NCBI GenBank assembly: GCA_011620145.1
Contig: WOZT01000047.1
Location: forward strand, 1 to 15,013
Reading direction: 5' to 3'
Origin: Gammaproteobacteria bacterium
GTDB taxonomy: Bacteria > Pseudomonadota > Gammaproteobacteria > UBA5335
DNA length: 15,013 bases
Each line of letters opens with the position of its first letter. Within the stretch, counting starts at the first letter, position 1. Both the position numbers and the translations under genes were made by a program. Positions 7,608-15,013 of this stretch are shown here, piece by piece. The notes under the pieces were generated by a model. That model saw nothing but the letters and a program-made list of their open reading frames with translations. It was not told where the DNA came from and searched no databases.

Positions 7608-7665
7608 TCCGCTATTTCTTGCGCGAAGTAGCCATGTCCTGAATGCGACACAGGCCATCGGTCTC

Positions 7666-8063
7666 GTGTTTACCCTGTTTGCTGGATCAACTGGAGTACC
7701 GATCGGCCCGTAACGGCGCCGATAGCTTGGCCTGGGACGCGCTTGCATGGGTTGGCCAGGACCGTGCAACCCACTCTGGCTGGGAAGTGAGGGATACGCG
7801 AACGGAGGCGGCAGGGGGCGAAAGTGATCGCCTGGATGCGTACTTTGGTCGCCTCATCTCGCCCTATTGGGATCTTTTGGTCGGCGTGGGGTATCAGCGT
7901 CGATATGGATCTGCGTTTGCGCTATGAGGTTTGGCGCGAGTTTGCGCCCTATATTGGCCTATCGTGGTCACCTGGCGTTGTGGGCACCGCAGATCTGGCG
8001 CGCACCGAGGAGACGCCCATTGAAGACTGGTCGTTGCTGACTGGGGTACGGCTATGGTTTTGA
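7666..8063 (+). pseudogene. copB: Remnant of copper resistance outer-membrane protein CopB/PcoB, frameshifted and internally deleted
   Basis: CopB-like segments are readable but scattered over three frames: LLDQLEYRSARNGADSLAWDALAW (7679-7752), then NPLWLGSEG in a second frame (7768-7794), then ESDRLDAYFGRLISPYWDLLVGV back in the first frame (7817-7885), then SVDMDLRLRYEVWREF and the C-terminus APYIGLSW to VRLWF in the third frame (about 7896-8063). Between the third and fourth pieces some 70 residues of the usual barrel are missing. The signal peptide and the Met/His-rich N-terminal half are also absent. The ending VRLWF followed by a stop is the normal outer-membrane beta-barrel terminus of CopB. 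It was presumably a copper-exporting or copper-sequestering barrel and is now dead. It stands between ohrR and the copper monooxygenase cluster. Confidence 0.82.
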
Positions 8064-8154: not shown

Positions 8155-8507
8155 GAGGTTTTTGGGCCTGACGCAATAGACCCAAAGTGTTTGATTTTAA
8201 TTGGGTATTGGCGCGACCTATGAGTTGGCCGGGCCGCTTTCGCTGATTTTTGCTTGAACAGCCGTTCAGGGATTGTGCCCACCTGCCGATTCAATTACAT
8301 TTGTGCGCCTGAAGGTTCGGGCCTTCGAACTGTGGCAGTAAATGATGACCGCCTCTTTTAGATTGACGAATACAATGATGTCCGCGTGAACGGTCGGTTG
8401 GGATCCATGCTTTTGCATGGGCGCATACCGTAGACTGTTGAGCATGGGTTGTTAGGCGATGCGGGGAAATTCGGGCTAACGGACTGACCGGGCAGCGCGT
8501 TTTGCGC

Positions 8508-8536
8508 TTGGTGATTGGGAAGTCCCGACTTATTTT
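8508..8536 (+). promoter_or_regulatory. Possible sigma-70 promoter for the pmoA-led cluster
   Basis: TTGGTG (8508-8513), a 17-base spacer and TATTTT (8531-8536) resemble -35 and -10 boxes, giving a start about 18 bases before the pmoA ATG. A dyad AAGTC-CC-GACTT (8520-8531) lies in the spacer and touches the -10 box, where an operator would act. The boxes are only partial matches. Confidence 0.3.
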
Positions 8537-8560
8537 TGAGGCAACAGGGAGTGAAGTGCG

Positions 8561-9358
8561 ATGAGTACGGTCAGTGGTGCATACGGTAAGGGCGGCACCC
8601 CGGATACAACGACCCGTCCGACAAAGTCGGCGGTGCGCAATGTCCAGGAGCAGATGGCAGCGTGGAAGAATGTTGATTACACCTTGATCCCGATCTTTTC
8701 GATCCTGATCGGCGGCGTGACGGTGTTCCTGATCGCGCTCACGGTCGGGGACTGGGACTACTGGGCGGACTGGCGTGATCGCCGCTGGTGGCCGTTGGTG
8801 ACGCCGTTTTCGCTCATCATTCCTGCGGCGATTTTCAACTATTTCTTCTGGAAGCGTTTCCGCCTGCCCATCGGGGCAACCGCCATGATCCTGGGCTATA
8901 TGTTCGGCGTGTGGGTCAGCCGGTACATGAACTTCCATATCTTTGCTAATTTCCCGATGAACTTTGTTTCGCCTTCGACTTTCATTGGCATGGGACTCCT
9001 GCTCGATTGCACCTTGGCGCTGAGCCGCAGTTTCTTTCTCACCGGCTTGGTGGGTGCGTTCCTGTTCGCCATCGTGCTCTATCCGCTGAACTGGGTGACC
9101 ATGGCACCCTTCCATGTGCCCGTGGAGTACAACGGCTTCCTGGTGACGGTGGCTGACCTGATGGGGTATCAGTACATCCGCACGGCGATGCCCGAGTACG
9201 TCCGCATCATCGAAAGATCAACGCTCCGGACTTTTGGTGAAGCGGTGACGCCGTTGACGGCCTTCTTTGCGGGCTTTGTCACTTTGCTGAACTACTACCT
9301 GTGGGTGTGGATCGGCTCGATTCTGACCCAGAATCGCTGGCTGACCCGGCTGATTTGA
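8561..9358 (+). CDS. pmoA: Copper membrane monooxygenase subunit A (PmoA/AmoA-like)
   Basis: This 265-residue polytopic inner-membrane protein aligns over its length with Methylococcus PmoA (247 residues), plus about 18 extra N-terminal residues. Signatures: GDWDYWADWRDRRWW (63-77), VTP after it, FPMNFVSPS (131-139), HVPVEYNG (185-192) and GYQYIRTAMPEYVRIIERSTLRTFG (202-226). E212 corresponds to E195 of Methylococcus PmoA, reported near the zinc/copper site shared with PmoC. The HVPVEYNG form groups it with Pmo, gammaproteobacterial Amo and hydrocarbon enzymes rather than with betaproteobacterial AmoA. Several positions differ from classical PmoA (FLVTVADLMGYQ where PmoA has MLMSIADIQGYN), suggesting a separate clade. 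The substrate is unknown. An AGGGAG ribosome site precedes the ATG by 9 bases. No pmoC lies upstream, and pmoB follows after 107 bases. Confidence 0.95.
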   Translation: MSTVSGAYGKGGTPDTTTRPTKSAVRNVQEQMAAWKNVDYTLIPIFSILIGGVTVFLIALTVGDWDYWADWRDRRWWPLVTPFSLIIPAAIFNYFFWKRFRLPIGATAMILGYMFGVWVSRYMNFHIFANFPMNFVSPSTFIGMGLLLDCTLALSRSFFLTGLVGAFLFAIVLYPLNWVTMAPFHVPVEYNGFLVTVADLMGYQYIRTAMPEYVRIIERSTLRTFGEAVTPLTAFFAGFVTLLNYYLWVWIGSILTQNRWLTRLI

Positions 9359-9385
9359 TCCATTGGCCATAGGTTTTAACTCGGT

Positions 9386-9461
9386 CTGGGGATTACCCAG
9401 GATTTATTTGGCAAGGACACTGGATCGCGCTCTGCGATTCGTCCATTCGGGGATTACCGAA
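9386..9461 (+). promoter_or_regulatory. Two hairpins sharing the GGGGATTACC repeat before pmoB
   Basis: The 10-mer GGGGATTACC occurs at 9388-9397 and 9449-9458. Each copy is framed by a different short stem: CTGGG/CCCAG (9386-9400) and TTCGG/CCGAA (9446-9461). The GGA-containing loop is thus kept while the stems differ. The second hairpin ends 4 bases before the pmoB start and contains its only plausible Shine-Dalgarno (GGGGA). GGA exposed in a hairpin loop is the recognition pattern of CsrA/RsmA proteins, so translational control of pmoB is possible. This is inference from structure. Confidence 0.4.
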
Positions 9462-9465
9462 CGTC

Positions 9466-10722
9466 ATGAAAACGATGAAACACATCAGGTATGGAAGTTG
9501 GGGGGCCTTGGCCCTCGCCATGTTGCTAACCTTGGTCGGGCCTTTCTATAGCCCTGCCGCCGAGGCACACGGTGAACGTGCTCAGCAGGCCAGCCTGCGC
9601 ATGCGCACCATGCATTGGTTTGACACCGAAATTCAGCCACGCAAAGTGGCGGTAAATGAGACCGTCCACGTGACAGGCCGCTTCATGCCGTCCCAGTGGT
9701 GGCCGGAGCATATTCGCTCGGTGGAAGAATCGGCCTTCATGAACATTGGCGTGCCCGGTCCCGCCTTCCTGCGTATTGATTCACGGGTCAATGGCGTGCC
9801 CATGATCCGTTCCACCCGTTTCCATCTGGGCAAGACCTATGAATACGATGTATTGCTCAAGGCACGGGCGCCTGGCCGTTATCACATTCATCCGGTGATC
9901 AGCGTGGAAGGCGCGGGCCCCATCATTGGGCCGGCTTTCTGGGTTGAGGTGACAGGAGACCAGAAAGATTTCAAACACACTATCACCACCATGACCGGGA
10001 ACGTGATCAATCCCGAAACTTATGCGATGTCGACCATCCTGTGGTGGAACGCGCTGTGGTTTGTGATCGGCATCGCCTGGCTTGCCTGGTGGTTCCGCAA
10101 ACTGCCTGTGATCATGCCGCGCTACATCAAGGTGGAAGAACTGGGTGATGACGCCAACCAGCTGATTACCATTCCGGACATGATCGTGTCGGCGCTGTTC
10201 TTCGGTTTCGTCATGCTGGTCATCGCAGGCGGGTATTTCTGGGCCAACTACCAATACCCCATTACTTCCGTTCTGCAGACTGGCAAGGTTGAAGTGGAAC
10301 CGCTGCCCCAGCCGCCACAGATGGTGGAAGTGGAAGTGAACAAGGCGACCTATCGGATTCCGGGCCGTAGTTTCCAAGTGGAAATGACCGTCACCAACCG
10401 CAGCCCGCGACCGGTTCAGGTCGGCGAGTTCAACGCCGCCAATATCCGGTTCATTAACAATAAGCTGCTCAATGTCAAAGCACAGGAAAAAGACGATCTG
10501 GTGGCCGCCACGGGTCTGCGGGTCGACAATCCGCCAATCCAGCCCGGCGAAACCCGCACGATCACCATTTATGCTGATGATGCGCTGTGGGAAACCTATC
10601 GCCTGACCAGTCTGATCAATGAACCGGATGGTCGGTTTGCCGCATTGCTGATGTTCTTTGACGATCAGGGCACCCGCTATATGCAGGAAATCGGTGGGCC
10701 CATGATTCCTTCCTTTGGCTGA
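9466..10722 (+). CDS. pmoB: Copper membrane monooxygenase subunit B (PmoB/AmoB-like)
   Basis: This 418-residue protein aligns with Methylococcus PmoB (414). Its signal peptide (about 1-34) ends in AEA before H35, so the mature protein would begin with His as in PmoB. The CuB site ligands are kept: H35 plus H140 and H142 in YHIHPV. H50 (TMHWFD) corresponds to H48 of PmoB, while the H72 position is Met (M74). Order: N-terminal cupredoxin (35-170), membrane helices at about 190-210 and 238-258, C-terminal cupredoxin (275-418) with YRIPGRSF, NRSPRPVQVGEF and PGETRTI, and the standard ending PMIPSFG. The soluble domains face the periplasm. The ATG at 9466 is favoured by the signal peptide; M4 (9475) is an alternative. 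Confidence 0.96.
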   Translation: MKTMKHIRYGSWGALALAMLLTLVGPFYSPAAEAHGERAQQASLRMRTMHWFDTEIQPRKVAVNETVHVTGRFMPSQWWPEHIRSVEESAFMNIGVPGPAFLRIDSRVNGVPMIRSTRFHLGKTYEYDVLLKARAPGRYHIHPVISVEGAGPIIGPAFWVEVTGDQKDFKHTITTMTGNVINPETYAMSTILWWNALWFVIGIAWLAWWFRKLPVIMPRYIKVEELGDDANQLITIPDMIVSALFFGFVMLVIAGGYFWANYQYPITSVLQTGKVEVEPLPQPPQMVEVEVNKATYRIPGRSFQVEMTVTNRSPRPVQVGEFNAANIRFINNKLLNVKAQEKDDLVAATGLRVDNPPIQPGETRTITIYADDALWETYRLTSLINEPDGRFAALLMFFDDQGTRYMQEIGGPMIPSFG

Positions 10723-10739
10723 TCATAAAACCTTGCCGG

Positions 10740-10772
10740 GCCGGCGATGTCGAAATGAATGACATCGTCGGC
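10740..10772 (+). promoter_or_regulatory. Strong stem-loop in the pmoB downstream gap
   Basis: GCCGGCGATGTC (10740-10751) pairs with GACATCGTCGGC (10761-10772) through 12 base pairs, one of them G-U, around the loop GAAATGAAT. It begins 18 bases past the pmoB stop. No U-tract follows, so it is more likely a processing or stability element that sets different transcript levels for pmoAB and the downstream genes, or an attenuator, than a simple terminator. Confidence 0.5.
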
Positions 10773-10827
10773 TCAGGTTGGGATCACCAGAAAAATGATT
10801 GATCGAGAGCACATCAAGGAGAACGAG

Positions 10828-11451
10828 ATGTCGCAGTCGAGGGTTTCAACTCTTTGGTCGTTCAGGCTAGGCCCCATAGTCATCCTTTTGCTGTTGATAT
10901 CGGCAAGTGGCGCGGCTTTTGGGCATGGTGGGGTGTCTATCGCAGATGACATGTGTGTGATGCAGGTCGGACCTTACCGAGCCCATTTCACGGGTTATCA
11001 GCCCGAGCGGCGGGCGACGCAAGAGTTCTGTGAAGATATTCCGGAGGTGGGACGGTCGATCTTCGTGATCGACTTCATCAACGATGAATTACGACACATG
11101 GAAACTGATTTTCGAATCATCAAGGATGTCAACAATATCGGCATCCGTGCGAAGTATGAAGATCTCGGCACCAAAGAAGACATTGAACGGGCAACGGTTT
11201 ACTACCGTCCTGCGGAAATTGTCGCCACTGGAACTTTTAATGCGGACCACACCTTTCCGGAACAAGGGCATTTCATTGGTCTGGTGACGGCCCGGAATCC
11301 GGAAACGGGCAAGGAAATCATCTCGGTGTTTCCCTTTGCAGTGGGCATCTTCCACTGGGGCCGCATGCTTGCTCGGATTGGTTTGATCCTGGCTCTGGTA
11401 GGCGGATTGGCAGGATTTTTCATTACCCGCGCTCTTCGCAAGAGCAGGTGA
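10828..11451 (+). CDS. Exported, C-terminally anchored protein of unknown function linked to the copper monooxygenase
   Basis: This is a 207-residue protein whose family I cannot name. Signal peptide: hydrophobic segment 16-30 followed by AFG before H33, so signal peptidase could expose His as the first mature residue, as in PmoB. The periplasmic part is about 33-180, with C43 (DDMCVMQVG) and C68 (EFCEDIPEVG) able to form a disulfide, H53 in YRAHFTGYQPE, and FPEQGHFIGLVTA near 155-170. A single membrane helix at about 183-200 ends in RKSR, giving the topology of a membrane-tethered beta domain. It is not PmoC, which is polytopic and longer, and it lacks a T1 copper motif. The start at 10828 has AAGGA 7 bases upstream; the frame continues upstream to 10759 but overlaps the hairpin region. 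Placement between pmoB and the multicopper oxidase suggests copper delivery, assembly or electron transfer; this is inference. Confidence 0.88.
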   Translation: MSQSRVSTLWSFRLGPIVILLLLISASGAAFGHGGVSIADDMCVMQVGPYRAHFTGYQPERRATQEFCEDIPEVGRSIFVIDFINDELRHMETDFRIIKDVNNIGIRAKYEDLGTKEDIERATVYYRPAEIVATGTFNADHTFPEQGHFIGLVTARNPETGKEIISVFPFAVGIFHWGRMLARIGLILALVGGLAGFFITRALRKSR

Positions 11452-11503
11452 GAGCTGACCGAAATCGCATATTTTCTTCTTCAATAACAGCTATTCGAGG
11501 CCG

Positions 11504-11550
11504 GGGACAGGTCCCATTGATCTGAGACTTCGCCACCCGGCTTGGCGAAG
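11504..11550. promoter_or_regulatory. Two inverted repeats in the gap before the multicopper oxidase
   Basis: GGGAC-AG-GTCCC (11504-11515) and CTTCGCCA-CCCGGCT-TGGCGAAG (11528-11550, 8-bp perfect stem) lie in the 194-base gap between the anchored protein and the oxidase. No U-run follows either, so their role (attenuation, transcript processing or operator) is open. A 17-codon frame starting at 11563 has no ribosome site and was not called. Confidence 0.4.
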
Positions 11551-11645
11551 AGCTCAGTTGTCATGTACAGGCAAATTTCCCGGTGGGGCGGCTGTCGCGG
11601 CTGTCGGTCTGTTTAATCGGTCTCCTTGTGGGAGTCGGCGGTACC

Positions 11646-13481
11646 ATGCAACGACGTATTTTGTGGCTGGCTTTTTTTATCTTGCTATTTTCCGGTGCCT
11701 TGCTGGTTCCCAAGCAATGGTATCCCTTGTCCTGGCAAATCAAGGCATACCAATGGTTTGGTCCCGGTAACTACGAAGCCCCACCAGCCAGTGCGAAGGC
11801 ACCTGAATTGTCGTCCGATACGTATTGCCCGGATGATCCCCAGGGCTGGCGAAAGCAACAAGTTATTGAAGGCGTTGAGATTGCCGCCTCGCCCAACTGT
11901 GTCGCAGATAATCCCTATACCGTGGCTGCATCGGTCAAGGGGACCAACAATGTTTCCCATGCCACACTGATGCAATCGGGGCTGGCTCCCGACGCCGTGG
12001 TCATGGGCCGGGATCTGGATGGCGACGGAGACCCGGACGAGGTCCATATTCGGCTTGAGGTCACGGAGCTCAATGGGGGCTCTCCCGACCGCCAGGATCC
12101 CACAACCCAGTTTGAAATCGCGCCGGGTATTCGCCCTGGCCTATGGGTGTTCTCGCCTAAGTCGGTGGGTATGTCCACCGAAAATTTCGAGTCCATGAGG
12201 GCCAATCTCCTGCTGCGGGCACCCAGTCCGGCGATCCGCGTGGAACAGGGCGACAAGGTTTTAATTACGCTGGAAAACACGCATTACATGCCGCATACCA
12301 TTCATCTCCATGGGGTGGATCATCCCTTCTCGCAAGACCATGGGATGCCGCATGATGAAAACATGTCGGATCACGCGCAACATGATGGGTTGGCCGATGA
12401 CTCGGCCGTTCTTGGCAGTAAAGAGGGTGAAGAAAACGGCGAAGCGGCATCATTGTATGTCGAGAGGATGGGCCCGGCTGCTCCCGGCAATGACGGGGTT
12501 GAAGAAACCAGCGAAATCCCGCACATGCCGGGCCGAAGTCATACGTATGAATTTCAGCCCAGAGTGCCGGGAACCTACTTCTATCATTGCCATGTTCAGC
12601 CCAACGTCCACATCCTCATGGGCTTGCAGGGGATGTTTGTGGTGGAGGAAAACCGCCGCAATAACTGGGTTCAAACGCTCAACATTGGCGCCGGACAGGT
12701 ACGCCATCCCTCCGTCGCGGTGCGGGAAAAGTTTGATCGCGAATATGACCTCCACTACGAAGATATTTATGCAGGTCTGAATAATATTATCCAGAGTCAG
12801 ATCGATCCGCGCTTGATCATCCGCGATGCCCACCGACGTTTCGATATTACGCAGGCCAGACCCAATTATTTCCTGCTCAATGGCCGTTCTTTCCCTTACA
12901 CCTTTCGCGAATCATTGGTAGTGGTCGCACCCAATGAGCGGGTGAAATTGCGCATGCTCAACGGGGGTAGCGAAGGCATCTCAGTGCATACCCACGGTCA
13001 CAAGTTCACAATCACTGATCTTGATGGTATCCCGGTGCCCCCAGCGGCACAGATTACCCGGGATACCGTTTTCATTTCCTCTGCGCAGCGCGCTGATGTC
13101 ACGCTGAATACAACAAACGATGGCTTGCATAGCTATGGTCCCGGAATCTGGCTGATGCATGATCATCGGGAAGCAGCCGTCACCAATGCGGGCATCGGTC
13201 CGGGTGGCAGCATCAATGCCATCGTCTATGAAAATTTTCTGGATGGGGCGGGATTTCCCAAGGTTCAGGGAGTGGATTGGAAAAAATTCTTTACCCCTGA
13301 ATATTACCAGCGGCAGATTCCGGTATGGATGGACTACGACCCTCTGTATCGGCTGGCTGATGCCACAGGCAGCCCCCGTGAAATGATTCGATTCCTGCTG
13401 CTGGGGCTTGTGGGAGGTGCTTGGATTGCGGTGATTATTGCCCTTTTGTGGCGACCGGGTCGGCGGTTGGTGAGAGGGTAA
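11646..13481 (+). CDS. Membrane-anchored multicopper oxidase with T1 copper in the first domain only
   Basis: This is a 611-residue protein. The N-terminal hydrophobic anchor is about 5-21, and the C-terminal membrane helix (about 581-601) is followed by RPGRRLVR. Domain 1: MPHTIHLHG (215-223) supplies a T1 His (H217) and trinuclear ligands H220 and H222; YFYHCHVQPNVH (311-322) supplies C315 and H322 for T1 and H314 and H316 for the cluster. Domain 2: SVHTHGH (446-452) and MHDH (504-507) supply the remaining cluster ligands (H448, H450, H505, H507), but the T1 His and Cys positions are I445 and D506. This is the type C arrangement known from the two-domain blue copper oxidase of Nitrosomonas. 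A DxDxDGDxD calcium-type loop is at 123-131. A His- and acid-rich insertion spans about 226-300. A GTG at 11583 in the same frame would add 21 residues with no ribosome site; the MQRR start fits the anchor better. Confidence 0.92.
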   Translation: MQRRILWLAFFILLFSGALLVPKQWYPLSWQIKAYQWFGPGNYEAPPASAKAPELSSDTYCPDDPQGWRKQQVIEGVEIAASPNCVADNPYTVAASVKGTNNVSHATLMQSGLAPDAVVMGRDLDGDGDPDEVHIRLEVTELNGGSPDRQDPTTQFEIAPGIRPGLWVFSPKSVGMSTENFESMRANLLLRAPSPAIRVEQGDKVLITLENTHYMPHTIHLHGVDHPFSQDHGMPHDENMSDHAQHDGLADDSAVLGSKEGEENGEAASLYVERMGPAAPGNDGVEETSEIPHMPGRSHTYEFQPRVPGTYFYHCHVQPNVHILMGLQGMFVVEENRRNNWVQTLNIGAGQVRHPSVAVREKFDREYDLHYEDIYAGLNNIIQSQIDPRLIIRDAHRRFDITQARPNYFLLNGRSFPYTFRESLVVVAPNERVKLRMLNGGSEGISVHTHGHKFTITDLDGIPVPPAAQITRDTVFISSAQRADVTLNTTNDGLHSYGPGIWLMHDHREAAVTNAGIGPGGSINAIVYENFLDGAGFPKVQGVDWKKFFTPEYYQRQIPVWMDYDPLYRLADATGSPREMIRFLLLGLVGGAWIAVIIALLWRPGRRLVRG

Positions 13482-13485
13482 AGCG

Positions 13486-14181
13486 ATGCGCTTGCGTTAC
13501 CCGACAATGCTGGCGATGTTTGCTCTGAGCGCGATGCTTACTTGGGTGGCGCTAGCGTCCGAGGCAGACAAACCCACTTCCCCGAAAGATCCATCGGGGA
13601 TGGACCACTCGATGCACATGGGTGGCATGGAGATGGACGCTGAAGGCATGGTCATGAACGCGAACGAGGATACGCTGCCGGAGGATTGCAAGGCGATCAG
13701 CAAGGACTATGCCTTCGAAGTGCATGCGGGCACAAAATACGCCGAACCGTATAACGGCACGATTTTCGGCATGAGCCAGCATGAATTTCATGTGGAGCCC
13801 TGTAGTCGGATCACCATCACTTTCATCAATGAAGATGAAGTTCGCCACCAGTTCATGGTGCATCAACTGCCCAAATACCTATATCCACAGGGCATGCTTC
13901 ATATTGAAGCGGCGGGTGGTGCCACCAAGAAAGCCACCTTCATCGTCCCCAGCGACAACCGCACTTATTTGGTCCACTGCGATATGGCCCAGCATATGGA
14001 AAAAGGCATGAAGGGACAGTTGGTAGTCGGGCGCGGCGGTATCGATTTTCCCAGTGTGCCCGGTGTGACCGGCACATTTCGTCGTCAGTGGTACACCGAT
14101 TCGGCAACGCTGCTCGCCGTTTTTGCGGGAGGCCTCGGGATTTCTCTGATCAGCGCGCTGCTGTTCCTGCGCCGGCGTTAA
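13486..14181 (+). CDS. Membrane-anchored cupredoxin with Met/His-rich N-terminal arm
   Basis: This 231-residue protein has a signal peptide (about 1-24), then an arm rich in Met, His and Asp (39-57, MDHSMHMGGMEM and more) of the kind that binds Cu(I)/Cu(II). A cupredoxin domain (about 75-183) carries a complete T1 copper set: H121 (EVRHQFMVH), C165, H170 and M175 in HCDMAQHMEKGM (C-x4-H-x4-M). C68 and C106 may form a disulfide. A membrane helix at about 207-226 ends in LRRRR. It would be a tethered periplasmic one-electron carrier or copper carrier. It begins 4 bases after the multicopper oxidase stop, with GAGAGGG inside the oxidase's end as ribosome site, so the two proteins are made together and probably work as a pair. 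It lacks the CuA-like features I would expect of PmoD. Confidence 0.9.
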   Translation: MRLRYPTMLAMFALSAMLTWVALASEADKPTSPKDPSGMDHSMHMGGMEMDAEGMVMNANEDTLPEDCKAISKDYAFEVHAGTKYAEPYNGTIFGMSQHEFHVEPCSRITITFINEDEVRHQFMVHQLPKYLYPQGMLHIEAAGGATKKATFIVPSDNRTYLVHCDMAQHMEKGMKGQLVVGRGGIDFPSVPGVTGTFRRQWYTDSATLLAVFAGGLGISLISALLFLRRR

Positions 14182-14189
14182 GGACGTCT

Positions 14190-15013
14190 TTATTCCCCTA
14201 TTGCCCGACGGGCAAACGCCACTATTTCCCTGGCCCGATCCGGCCAGTCAAGATGGCTGCCAGGATGGGCGCAATAGCGGGTTTCGCCTCCTTCACGGCA
14301 TCCCGACCAGACGAGACAACTGTTTTCTTCGTGCGGCGTGCTTTCACATTGATTGCATTGCGCCCACCAACGGGCTGCTTCCCGTCCAAATCCGGGAAAC
14401 AGGCGATCGCGATCCCCATGCAGAATCATCACCGGCAAAGGCGCCGGGCAGGATTCCCTGGCCAGATCCTCGCCCCGGATGCCGGCCGCGCTGGGAATGA
14501 TGGCCGCCGGACGCGGTGCGATGTCCGGTAAAAACGCCAGCGCGCTGCTGATCGTCCCCCCATCCGAGTGGCCCGTGTAGATCAAATGATCCAGATCGAT
14601 GCAGTAGGTGCGCGCCACTGCCGGCGCGACCTGGGCCAAGTCCCTAATTACGCGCTGCGTCAGCCCCCGGCTACCGGCATAGGCCACGACGAATCCTGCG
14701 GCGGTAGCCTCATGGGTCAAGCCCGTGAAGCGTTCGTTCAGGGTGGGGCCCAAACCAGCAGGTGCGAATACGACAAGCAAAGGATGGAGGCGGCGCGGAT
14801 CATAGTTTTTCGGGGCGCGGACCCGGATCGGGATCCCGTCGGGGGTGCGCAGTTCGGTGGGGTCGGGATCTTTTGCTCTGGGACCCGCCGGACAAGCCGT
14901 TGGCGCTTCGCCCCCATAGTCATAGGAGGCGGAAAGCAAGGCATCACCCCAGTGCAGATGAGTGATGGCCAGCCAAGCGGGCAGGCCAATGAACAGGCCG
15001 CCCACGACGAGAA
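14190..15013 (-). CDS. Alpha/beta hydrolase, PHB-depolymerase/LpqC-like esterase, 5' end outside window
   Basis: At least 271 residues are visible from a possible GTG at 15005, but the frame is open to the window edge and the hydrophobic start (GGLFIGLPAWLAI) looks like the middle of a signal or anchor, so the true start probably lies beyond. Numbering from 15005, the nucleophile elbow is GHSDGG with S147, the acid is D198 or D200 in HGDRDRLF, and the base is H251 in PGSHLDWP. LLVVFAPAGLGPT (about 76-88) supplies the oxyanion-hole region. The C-terminal third has six Cys residues, suggesting disulfides in an exported protein. Family members hydrolyse polyesters, feruloyl or acetyl esters; the substrate is not readable. 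It is convergent with the cupredoxin gene, stop to stop across 8 bases, and is not part of that cluster. Confidence 0.85.
   Translation of the reverse strand, partial: LVVGGLFIGLPAWLAITHLHWGDALLSASYDYGGEAPTACPAGPRAKDPDPTELRTPDGIPIRVRAPKNYDPRRLHPLLVVFAPAGLGPTLNERFTGLTHEATAAGFVVAYAGSRGLTQRVIRDLAQVAPAVARTYCIDLDHLIYTGHSDGGTISSALAFLPDIAPRPAAIIPSAAGIRGEDLARESCPAPLPVMILHGDRDRLFPGFGREAARWWAQCNQCESTPHEENSCLVWSGCREGGETRYCAHPGSHLDWPDRAREIVAFARRAIGE

Follow-up and report, generated by a model that had tools for sequence, protein, structure and literature searches.

The stretch of DNA analysed here, referred to as the window, is the whole of contig C83 (15,013 bases), one of the 300 contigs of the gammaproteobacterial bin G000, which measures 1.79 Mb and is 86.5% complete. 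The window carries genes for subunits A and B of a copper membrane monooxygenase (CuMMO, AMO/pMMO superfamily), here named xmoA and xmoB, followed on the same strand by genes for a PmoD homologue (xmoD, or D), a multicopper oxidase (MCO) and a cupredoxin (CUP). The gene for the third subunit, xmoC, is not found beside them. The features of this unit are as follows.

8184..8560, plus strand: region upstream of xmoA, aligned with the related genome G001 (blastn, 8184-11441 against 9024-12280 of locus L052, 79%)
8561..9358, plus strand: xmoA (pmoA/amoA-like), 265 aa (PF02461, 271.7 bits)
9466..10722, plus strand: xmoB (pmoB/amoB-like), 418 aa (PF04744, 428 bits; alignment to 3rgb)
10828..11451, plus strand: xmoD, PmoD homologue, 207 aa, with an alternative ORF start at 10759 (6cpd, E 7.7e-18)
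~11646..13481, plus strand: MCO, two-domain-laccase-like (PF07732/PF07731/PF00394; 3g5w, E 4.1e-27)
13486..14181, plus strand: anchored CUP with an H..C..H..M pattern (AlphaFold2 model, with cupredoxin and laccase structure matches)

The intergenic gaps from xmoA through xmoB, xmoD, and MCO to CUP were about 107, 105, 194, and 4 bases, respectively. The scores of XmoA and XmoB exceeded the Pfam cut-offs, which are 27.5 bits for PF02461 and 22.7 bits for PF04744. The PEYVR motif is present in XmoA. XmoB has kept the N-terminal histidine and the HxH copper ligands of CuMMO: in the alignment to 3rgb, its H35 (residue numbers were counted on the printed chain) aligns with Bath H33, the HxH pair is kept as YHIHP, Bath H48 is kept, and the position of Bath H72 is occupied by methionine. 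Across A, B, D, and MCO of the genomes G000–G003, together with CUP of G000, G002, and G003, the dN/dS was 0.016–0.091, a range that covers the pairs with unsaturated dS and gives rough values, since many dS exceeded 1. For A and B alone, the dN/dS was 0.016–0.076 at dS of at least 0.72, and no stops were found in the four genomes. The AB pair is intact and under purifying selection, and a preliminary description of the window, which had read an intact pmoA- and pmoB-like pair here, was right on this point.

A PF04896 (XmoC) search of contig C83 gave no match. A hidden Markov model (HMM) of 43 C proteins was run at maximum sensitivity in six frames over the AB loci of G000–G004, and its best E value was 0.78, while the positive control locus gave 1.2e-120. 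These results agree with the preliminary description, which had seen no C in the window. C is missing from the operon of the window AB, and an intact xmoC does occur elsewhere in the genome, with the caution that the window's own bin appears mixed. XmoB was present in 8 of the 144 related genomes searched, including that of the window, and in 11 of the 369 genomes of a class-wide draw (loci L008 and L009, the two relatives that a scan of genome contigs with B had yielded, appear to be G001 and G002, and each was counted once). The order A-B-D-MCO-CUP occurs in four genomes of one genus (G000–G003), that is, in three besides the window's, the contig of G001 ending inside CUP. In G004, a member of the same family, A-B-D is not followed by MCO-CUP, which lies on a different contig. 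The contigs with the window-type AB in G000–G004 measure 15, 58, 13, 315, and 31 kb, respectively, and C was found on none of them (five of five genomes). The strongest cases are G003 (96% complete, 1% contamination) and G004 (99% complete, 1% contamination). As a control, C was directly upstream in all 17 of the other assessable AB loci: six of the type found in the canonical CAB operon on contig C23 (C23-type, one in each of G000–G005), one each in G018, G036, G258, and G222, two in G146, three in G331, and two in G353. Among these 17, the further copies in G146 and G331 were judged from coordinates alone, and G183 was left out of the count, its A starting 177 bases from the contig end.

We considered whether an assembly or binning artefact could account for the arrangement, as the assembly of G000 consists of 300 contigs and its bin appears mixed. 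However, the same arrangement is found in five genomes, with one AB on a 315-kb contig, and the region at 8184-8560 aligned with G001, which indicates that a join made in assembly immediately before A does not explain the missing C. An artefact therefore seems extremely unlikely, and A-B without linked C in this family is not a local artefact. The AB pair could also be a decaying leftover, which has lost its C and is heading for loss while the cell relies on the C23-type CAB. A broken copB adjoins the unit and there is no C in it, as this explanation would have it, but the dN/dS of A and B and the lack of stops given above are against decay. Moreover, the identity of the window A to G001, G002, and G003 was 97%, 92%, and 94%, respectively, and that of the C23-type A was lower in three of three relatives (94%, 86%, and 90%, respectively). 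We give decay hardly any credence.

Genes for C are found apart from these loci. The PF04896 matches in G000, G001, G002, G003, G004, G005, and G018 (a genome of another family) numbered 3, 6, 5, 6, 6, 4, and 9, respectively; among these, one of G001 has 40 codons, two of G002 are contig-end pieces, and one of G005 is cut. Each of G000–G005 has one C in a C23-type CAB operon, whose B in G002 is split over two contigs. The unlinked C rows numbered 2, 5, 4, 5, and 5 in G000–G004, with one fragment in G001 and two in G002, and each of these five genomes has more C genes than AB pairs. Altogether, 39 C rows were obtained from the family and G018, of which 6 are in CAB operons, 1 is linked in G018, and 32 are unlinked. 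Of the unlinked rows, 28 have kept both metal motifs, D-x3-H-x12-H and N-x3-H-x13-H, and four are incomplete, being fragments or truncated at contig ends. The unlinked C fall in part into types named after contigs of G000: the C231 type has a neighbourhood common to G000–G003, and its G003 member matched the solved AmoC 9pxf (E 3.8e-59) and also PmoC chains; the C79 type stands beside the same gene in G000–G003, with only a piece in G002. The dN/dS of three unlinked C sets was 0.034–0.146, the third set mixing close paralogues. The preliminary description had offered two alternatives, C encoded elsewhere or a downstream module in the role of C. At the gene level the first appears to hold, because relatives carry the window-type AB together with unlinked C.

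Three C genes matched PF04896 in the window's own bin, one in the CAB operon on C23, one on C79, and one at the edge of C231, so that two lie outside CAB. Beside these three, G000 has two AB pairs, which differ from each other. The identity to G001 over the aligned lengths was 97% for C231, C79, and C70, and it was lower for the window (79%, best long stretch), C23 (87%), and C189 (83%). Likewise, the dS between G000 and G001 was 0.06 and 0.11 for the C231 and C79 C genes, and 0.72–2.22 for the window A, B, D, and MCO. This comparison covered the 6 of 300 contigs that had a G001 counterpart among the loci compared; five more had none. The estimated contamination of G000 was 0.28%. We believe that two strains or species have probably been combined in this bin, and because of this the window's own partner C cannot be named. 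The C231 gene had been considered as the partner for its strong conservation and was dropped, as the bin looks mixed.

G018 provides a bridge to the canonical arrangement. This genome, whose order was represented by one genome only in the search made of it, has one XmoB and nine XmoC, of which one is linked and eight are unlinked. The linked C lies approximately 0.8–0.9 kb upstream of A-B-D-MCO-CUP, so the five-gene order of the window recurs there with C in front. The B of G018 groups with the window-type B (90/90). In the C tree, a group of 18 rows (100/97) unites the linked C of G018, seven other C of G018, and ten unlinked C from the window's family, and the C23-type CAB subunits form a separate group (6 rows, 100/99). 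When the tree was built with one outgroup, the 30 non-CAB C rows were held together at 90/93. The placement of the ninth G018 C, the C231 type, and the C79 type is uncertain. The simplest history would start from C-A-B-D-MCO-CUP as the older state, with C dropping out of the unit in the window's family; events may also have run the other way.

These data bear on a different source of C, namely that the AB pair borrows the C of the canonical C23-type CAB operon, and the unlinked C serve under stress or are swapped with the CAB enzyme. G000–G004 all carry both AB types together with a CAB-type C, the C23-type C keeps both metal motifs, and G005 has unlinked C and a CAB operon with no window-type AB found, all of which would suit borrowing. 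In G018, however, a window-type AB occurs with no second B, so its partner must come from the genome's own C set, and eight of the nine C of G018 group with the unlinked C and not with the CAB-type C (the 100/97 and 100/99 groups above). Borrowing is, in our opinion, unlikely.

The third protein of the unit, described as unknown in the preliminary account, is homologous to the solved PmoD 6cpd. Compared with 6cpd, it has kept the Cys and His ligands of CuA and lacks the Met; its motif is Cx9HxnC, and not the CuA-site motif Cx7MxHxnC. A hydrophobic C-terminal stretch was recognised by eye, and the tree of D proteins lacked resolution. The MCO matches three Cu-oxidase families and the two-domain oxidases 3g5w and 2zwn. 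Its copper motifs HxH, HCH, HxH, and HxH (H221/H223, H315-C316-H317, H449/H451, and H506/H508) are invariant in 28 aligned rows (the window and 27 chosen from 120 listed); its model is poor (pLDDT 56.8), with helices near both ends. CUP starts 4 bp after the MCO stop and matches Cu-oxidase_2 (E 2e-6), with Cupredoxin_1 under its cut-off. The AlphaFold2 model of CUP (pLDDT 79.8) has a predicted beta-sandwich between helices 6-23 and 206-230, and its structure matches begin with auracyanin and laccases, whose TM-scores were low when taken over the entire chain. H121, C165, H170, and M175 of CUP are invariant in 29 rows (the window and 28 of 120 listed). The clear copper sites that had been noted in the oxidase and the cupredoxin are borne out.

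At E up to 1e-3, MCO matches were found in 10 of 12 genomes, those of G222 being weak and partial. Clear MCO homologues (48–57%, tblastn) lie apart from CAB in G004, G331, G353, and G146; CUP is next in all four, and a PmoD homologue comes before in G353 and G146. These unlinked units are PmoD-MCO-CUP at L150 6565-9537 and L151 6630-9971 (G353 and G146, respectively) and MCO-CUP at L149 6306-9024 and L148 6059-8710 (G331 and G004, respectively). By our own reading of translations, the MCO-CUP of G331 adjoins genes resembling a nitric-oxide-reductase-type cluster. The MCO-CUP module is thus a recurring, not universal, companion of CuMMO, and in the window it is joined to AB. We guess that it may work in the oxidation or delivery of Cu(I), or in electron transfer. 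Since the pair occurs in hydrocarbon-type and other CuMMO bacteria (G331, G146, and G353), it is a candidate electron or copper partner.

The second alternative of the preliminary description was that AB works without any C, and PmoD, the MCO, or the cupredoxin assumes the role of C. The unit is indeed without C, and the module follows AB directly in four genomes of the genus. However, MCO-CUP, with PmoD in G146 and G353, is found unlinked alongside complete CAB operons in G331, G146, and G353, where every AB has its C; in G018, a C lies ahead of the same A-B-D-MCO-CUP unit; and in G004, A-B-D stands without linked MCO-CUP. The module would thus not replace C, and a C-free enzyme is very improbable.

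The A tree was built from 84 rows (20 from the loci and 64 of 120 proteins listed) by a quick method, with no Cycloclasticus or Haliea sequence knowingly included. It was rooted on A of G036, G146, G183, G222, G258, G331, and G353, from which the window A stands apart with a support of 98. Within a 69-row clade, the window A is joined by proteins whose source names are Sinimarinibacterium, Solimonas, Panacagrimonas, and Nevskia; a clade of 39 rows unites it with the A of G018 and the C23-type A, the latter on a long branch. XmoA scored under both NCBIfam A cut-offs (278.2 against the cut-off of 290 for the bacterial AmoA). The formaldehyde-activating enzyme of the H4MPT route (Fae), expected of a methane-oxidising pMMO organism, was found in none of the seven genomes G000–G005 and G018, and was found in G036. 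A PQQ alcohol dehydrogenase was over its cut-off in G001, G003, G004, G005, and G018, with partial matches only in G000 and G002. We believe that the AB pair is best explained as a gammaproteobacterial hydrocarbon-type CuMMO. The position in the A tree, the absence of Fae, and the PQQ alcohol dehydrogenase make C2–C4 alkanes or alkenes the most likely substrate, and such short compounds would fit better than methane.

Taken together, we think it likely that the window encodes a hydrocarbon-type AB whose C is supplied in trans from unlinked xmoC, together with a copper or electron module. We infer co-transcription, assembly in trans, and the choice of C. A and B would be expressed together with the PmoD homologue, the MCO, and the anchored cupredoxin. 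One or more unlinked xmoC genes would supply in trans the C subunit, which the membrane metal site requires, and this C would assemble with A and B into the usual ABC trimer. On the periplasmic face, the three downstream proteins would serve in copper loading, Cu(I) oxidation, or electron transfer. We further suggest, tentatively and with less than even confidence, that one AB pair works with interchangeable scattered C subunits, each separately controlled, as the single AB with eight unlinked and one linked C in G018 might reflect. If so, C swapping would tune the metal site or the substrate range to conditions, a bacterial counterpart of the soil archaea with multiple amoC. The location of the CuMMO active site, and hence the role of C, is still debated. 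This uncultured family, where one AB type stands apart from C and C genes outnumber AB pairs in five genomes, would offer, with few AB and many C variants, a natural system in which C swapping could probe that role.

Several observations weigh against supply in trans to a hydrocarbon-type AB. XmoB is over the NCBIfam cut-off for AmoB (546.1 against 336); the AmoB_BACT match as proof of ammonia oxidation was rejected, as A is under the matching cut-off. Hydroxylamine oxidoreductase (HAO, PF13447) was found in none of eight genomes, with the controls equally silent. Unlinked C genes can occur without the window-type AB: G005 (82% complete), where that AB was looked for and not found, carries three unlinked C rows besides its CAB operon. 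All 30 non-CAB C rows lie on one side of a branch supported at only 43/78, so the tree does not link the C231 and C79 types to the window AB with confidence. The C231 and C79 genes of G000 may also belong to another strain. Finally, no MCO match was found in G005 and G036 among the 12 genomes, so the module is not universal.

Studies, in the parts covered here, describe several related systems. A review described an AB pair with C scattered elsewhere as not occurring in bacteria, and among open-licence papers (PMC9038741 and PMC9213486 included), as far as their covered text goes, none was found to report an AB locus lacking C in a bacterium. Nitrososphaeraceae archaea have single amoA and amoB genes with several amoC and no conserved operon, and in N. 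viennensis AmoC6 appears as the main AmoC (PMC10030591). The window resembles these archaea in that AB is in one unit without C, and several C are scattered, one of which is possibly the main partner. Unlike them, it is bacterial, with a bacterial-type B, its AB is joined to PmoD, an MCO, and a cupredoxin, and a second, canonical CAB operon occurs in G000–G004. Methanotrophs and ammonia oxidisers have extra lone pmoC or amoC genes away from the operon (PMC6215863, PMC7674155), as here; however, their operon keeps its own C, whereas the window-type AB has none. In pxmABC, A-B likewise stands at the front (PMC6215863), but no C lies behind the window B.

As is likely for the window, gammaproteobacterial CuMMO tied to short hydrocarbons are known from the Cycloclasticus pHMO, linked to short alkanes, and from the pMMO-like enzyme of Haliea (PMC12510462, PMC4036023). 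Haliea grown on ethylene degrade C2–C3 gases and carry pMMO-like genes (PMC4036023), and a PQQ alcohol dehydrogenase and a D gene are also found in Cycloclasticus (PMC12510462). The covered portions of these two papers make no mention of a split C or a linked MCO-cupredoxin. XmoD is homologous to PmoD/AmoD, stands beside AB, and has kept two Cys and the His, but it differs from those with a CuA site in its Cx9HxnC motif and its missing Met ligand (PMC6189053). According to the same source in part, the Cx9HxnC class has been reported to bind copper without forming CuA, and it is often near copC.

On either side of the unit lie two further features.

7643..8063, plus strand: frame-broken copB remnant, not part of the unit (PF05275, E 1.6e-11)
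14190..15005, minus strand: convergent hydrolase, beyond the last gene of the unit, whose end it marks (G003 and G004 have a homologue on this side)

The PF05275 match within 7643-7924 spans only profile positions 5-80 of 208, and by our own reading of the translation the remaining sequence apparently continues in another frame to about 8063. The partial match and the frame change make copB a remnant, as the preliminary description's dead copB had implied. Its esterase downstream is plausible, as the hydrolase matched the PHA-depolymerase-like NF050058 (E 1.6e-8), but this is under the cut-off, and there was no Pfam match. The sigma-70 scan gave 0 sites against 5.0 expected, and 9 terminators were predicted against 7.0 expected, so transcript limits cannot be drawn. 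In 38 regions preceding A, C, and CAB genes, the search for sigma-54 sites gave no consistent signal; for 5 of these regions the best site was equalled in fewer than 10 of 100 shuffles, and its distance differed from region to region. A plasmid search yielded distant B proteins only, in 5 of 72,556 records, all below 60% identity. Upstream of A in G001–G003 (L052 2989-7593, L053 7456-11989, and L054 13651-18189, respectively), there are a PQQ-propeller protein and a flavin monooxygenase-like gene, and the window has other genes there. In G353 (2.3 Mb, 100% complete), the loci L129 and L130 on contigs C1 and C7 are two quite different CAB operons, one of which is flanked by PmoD-like genes on both sides.

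The neighbours of the unlinked C were also scanned. The 30 proteins, 26 from unlinked-C loci and 4 from AB loci, belong to mixed families, such as acyl-CoA dehydrogenases, acyl-CoA ligases, thiolase, isocitrate lyase, malate synthase, MoeA, RecQ, secretion, and others, several of them without a match, and we claim no common theme among these 30. In G018, one unlinked xmoC adjoins an isocitrate-lyase-family gene (L084 2254-3546 and 3844-4662), and another adjoins malate synthase (L090 4096-4980 and 5471-7627). These neighbours from the glyoxylate route are suggestive of C2 metabolism, although they could be due to chance. In G003 (L072 3872-6587; L067 4234-6239), two divergent xmoC flank a methyltransferase-like gene, by our own reading, near two acyl-CoA dehydrogenases, and at the corresponding place G001 has one of the two in full and the other as a fragment.

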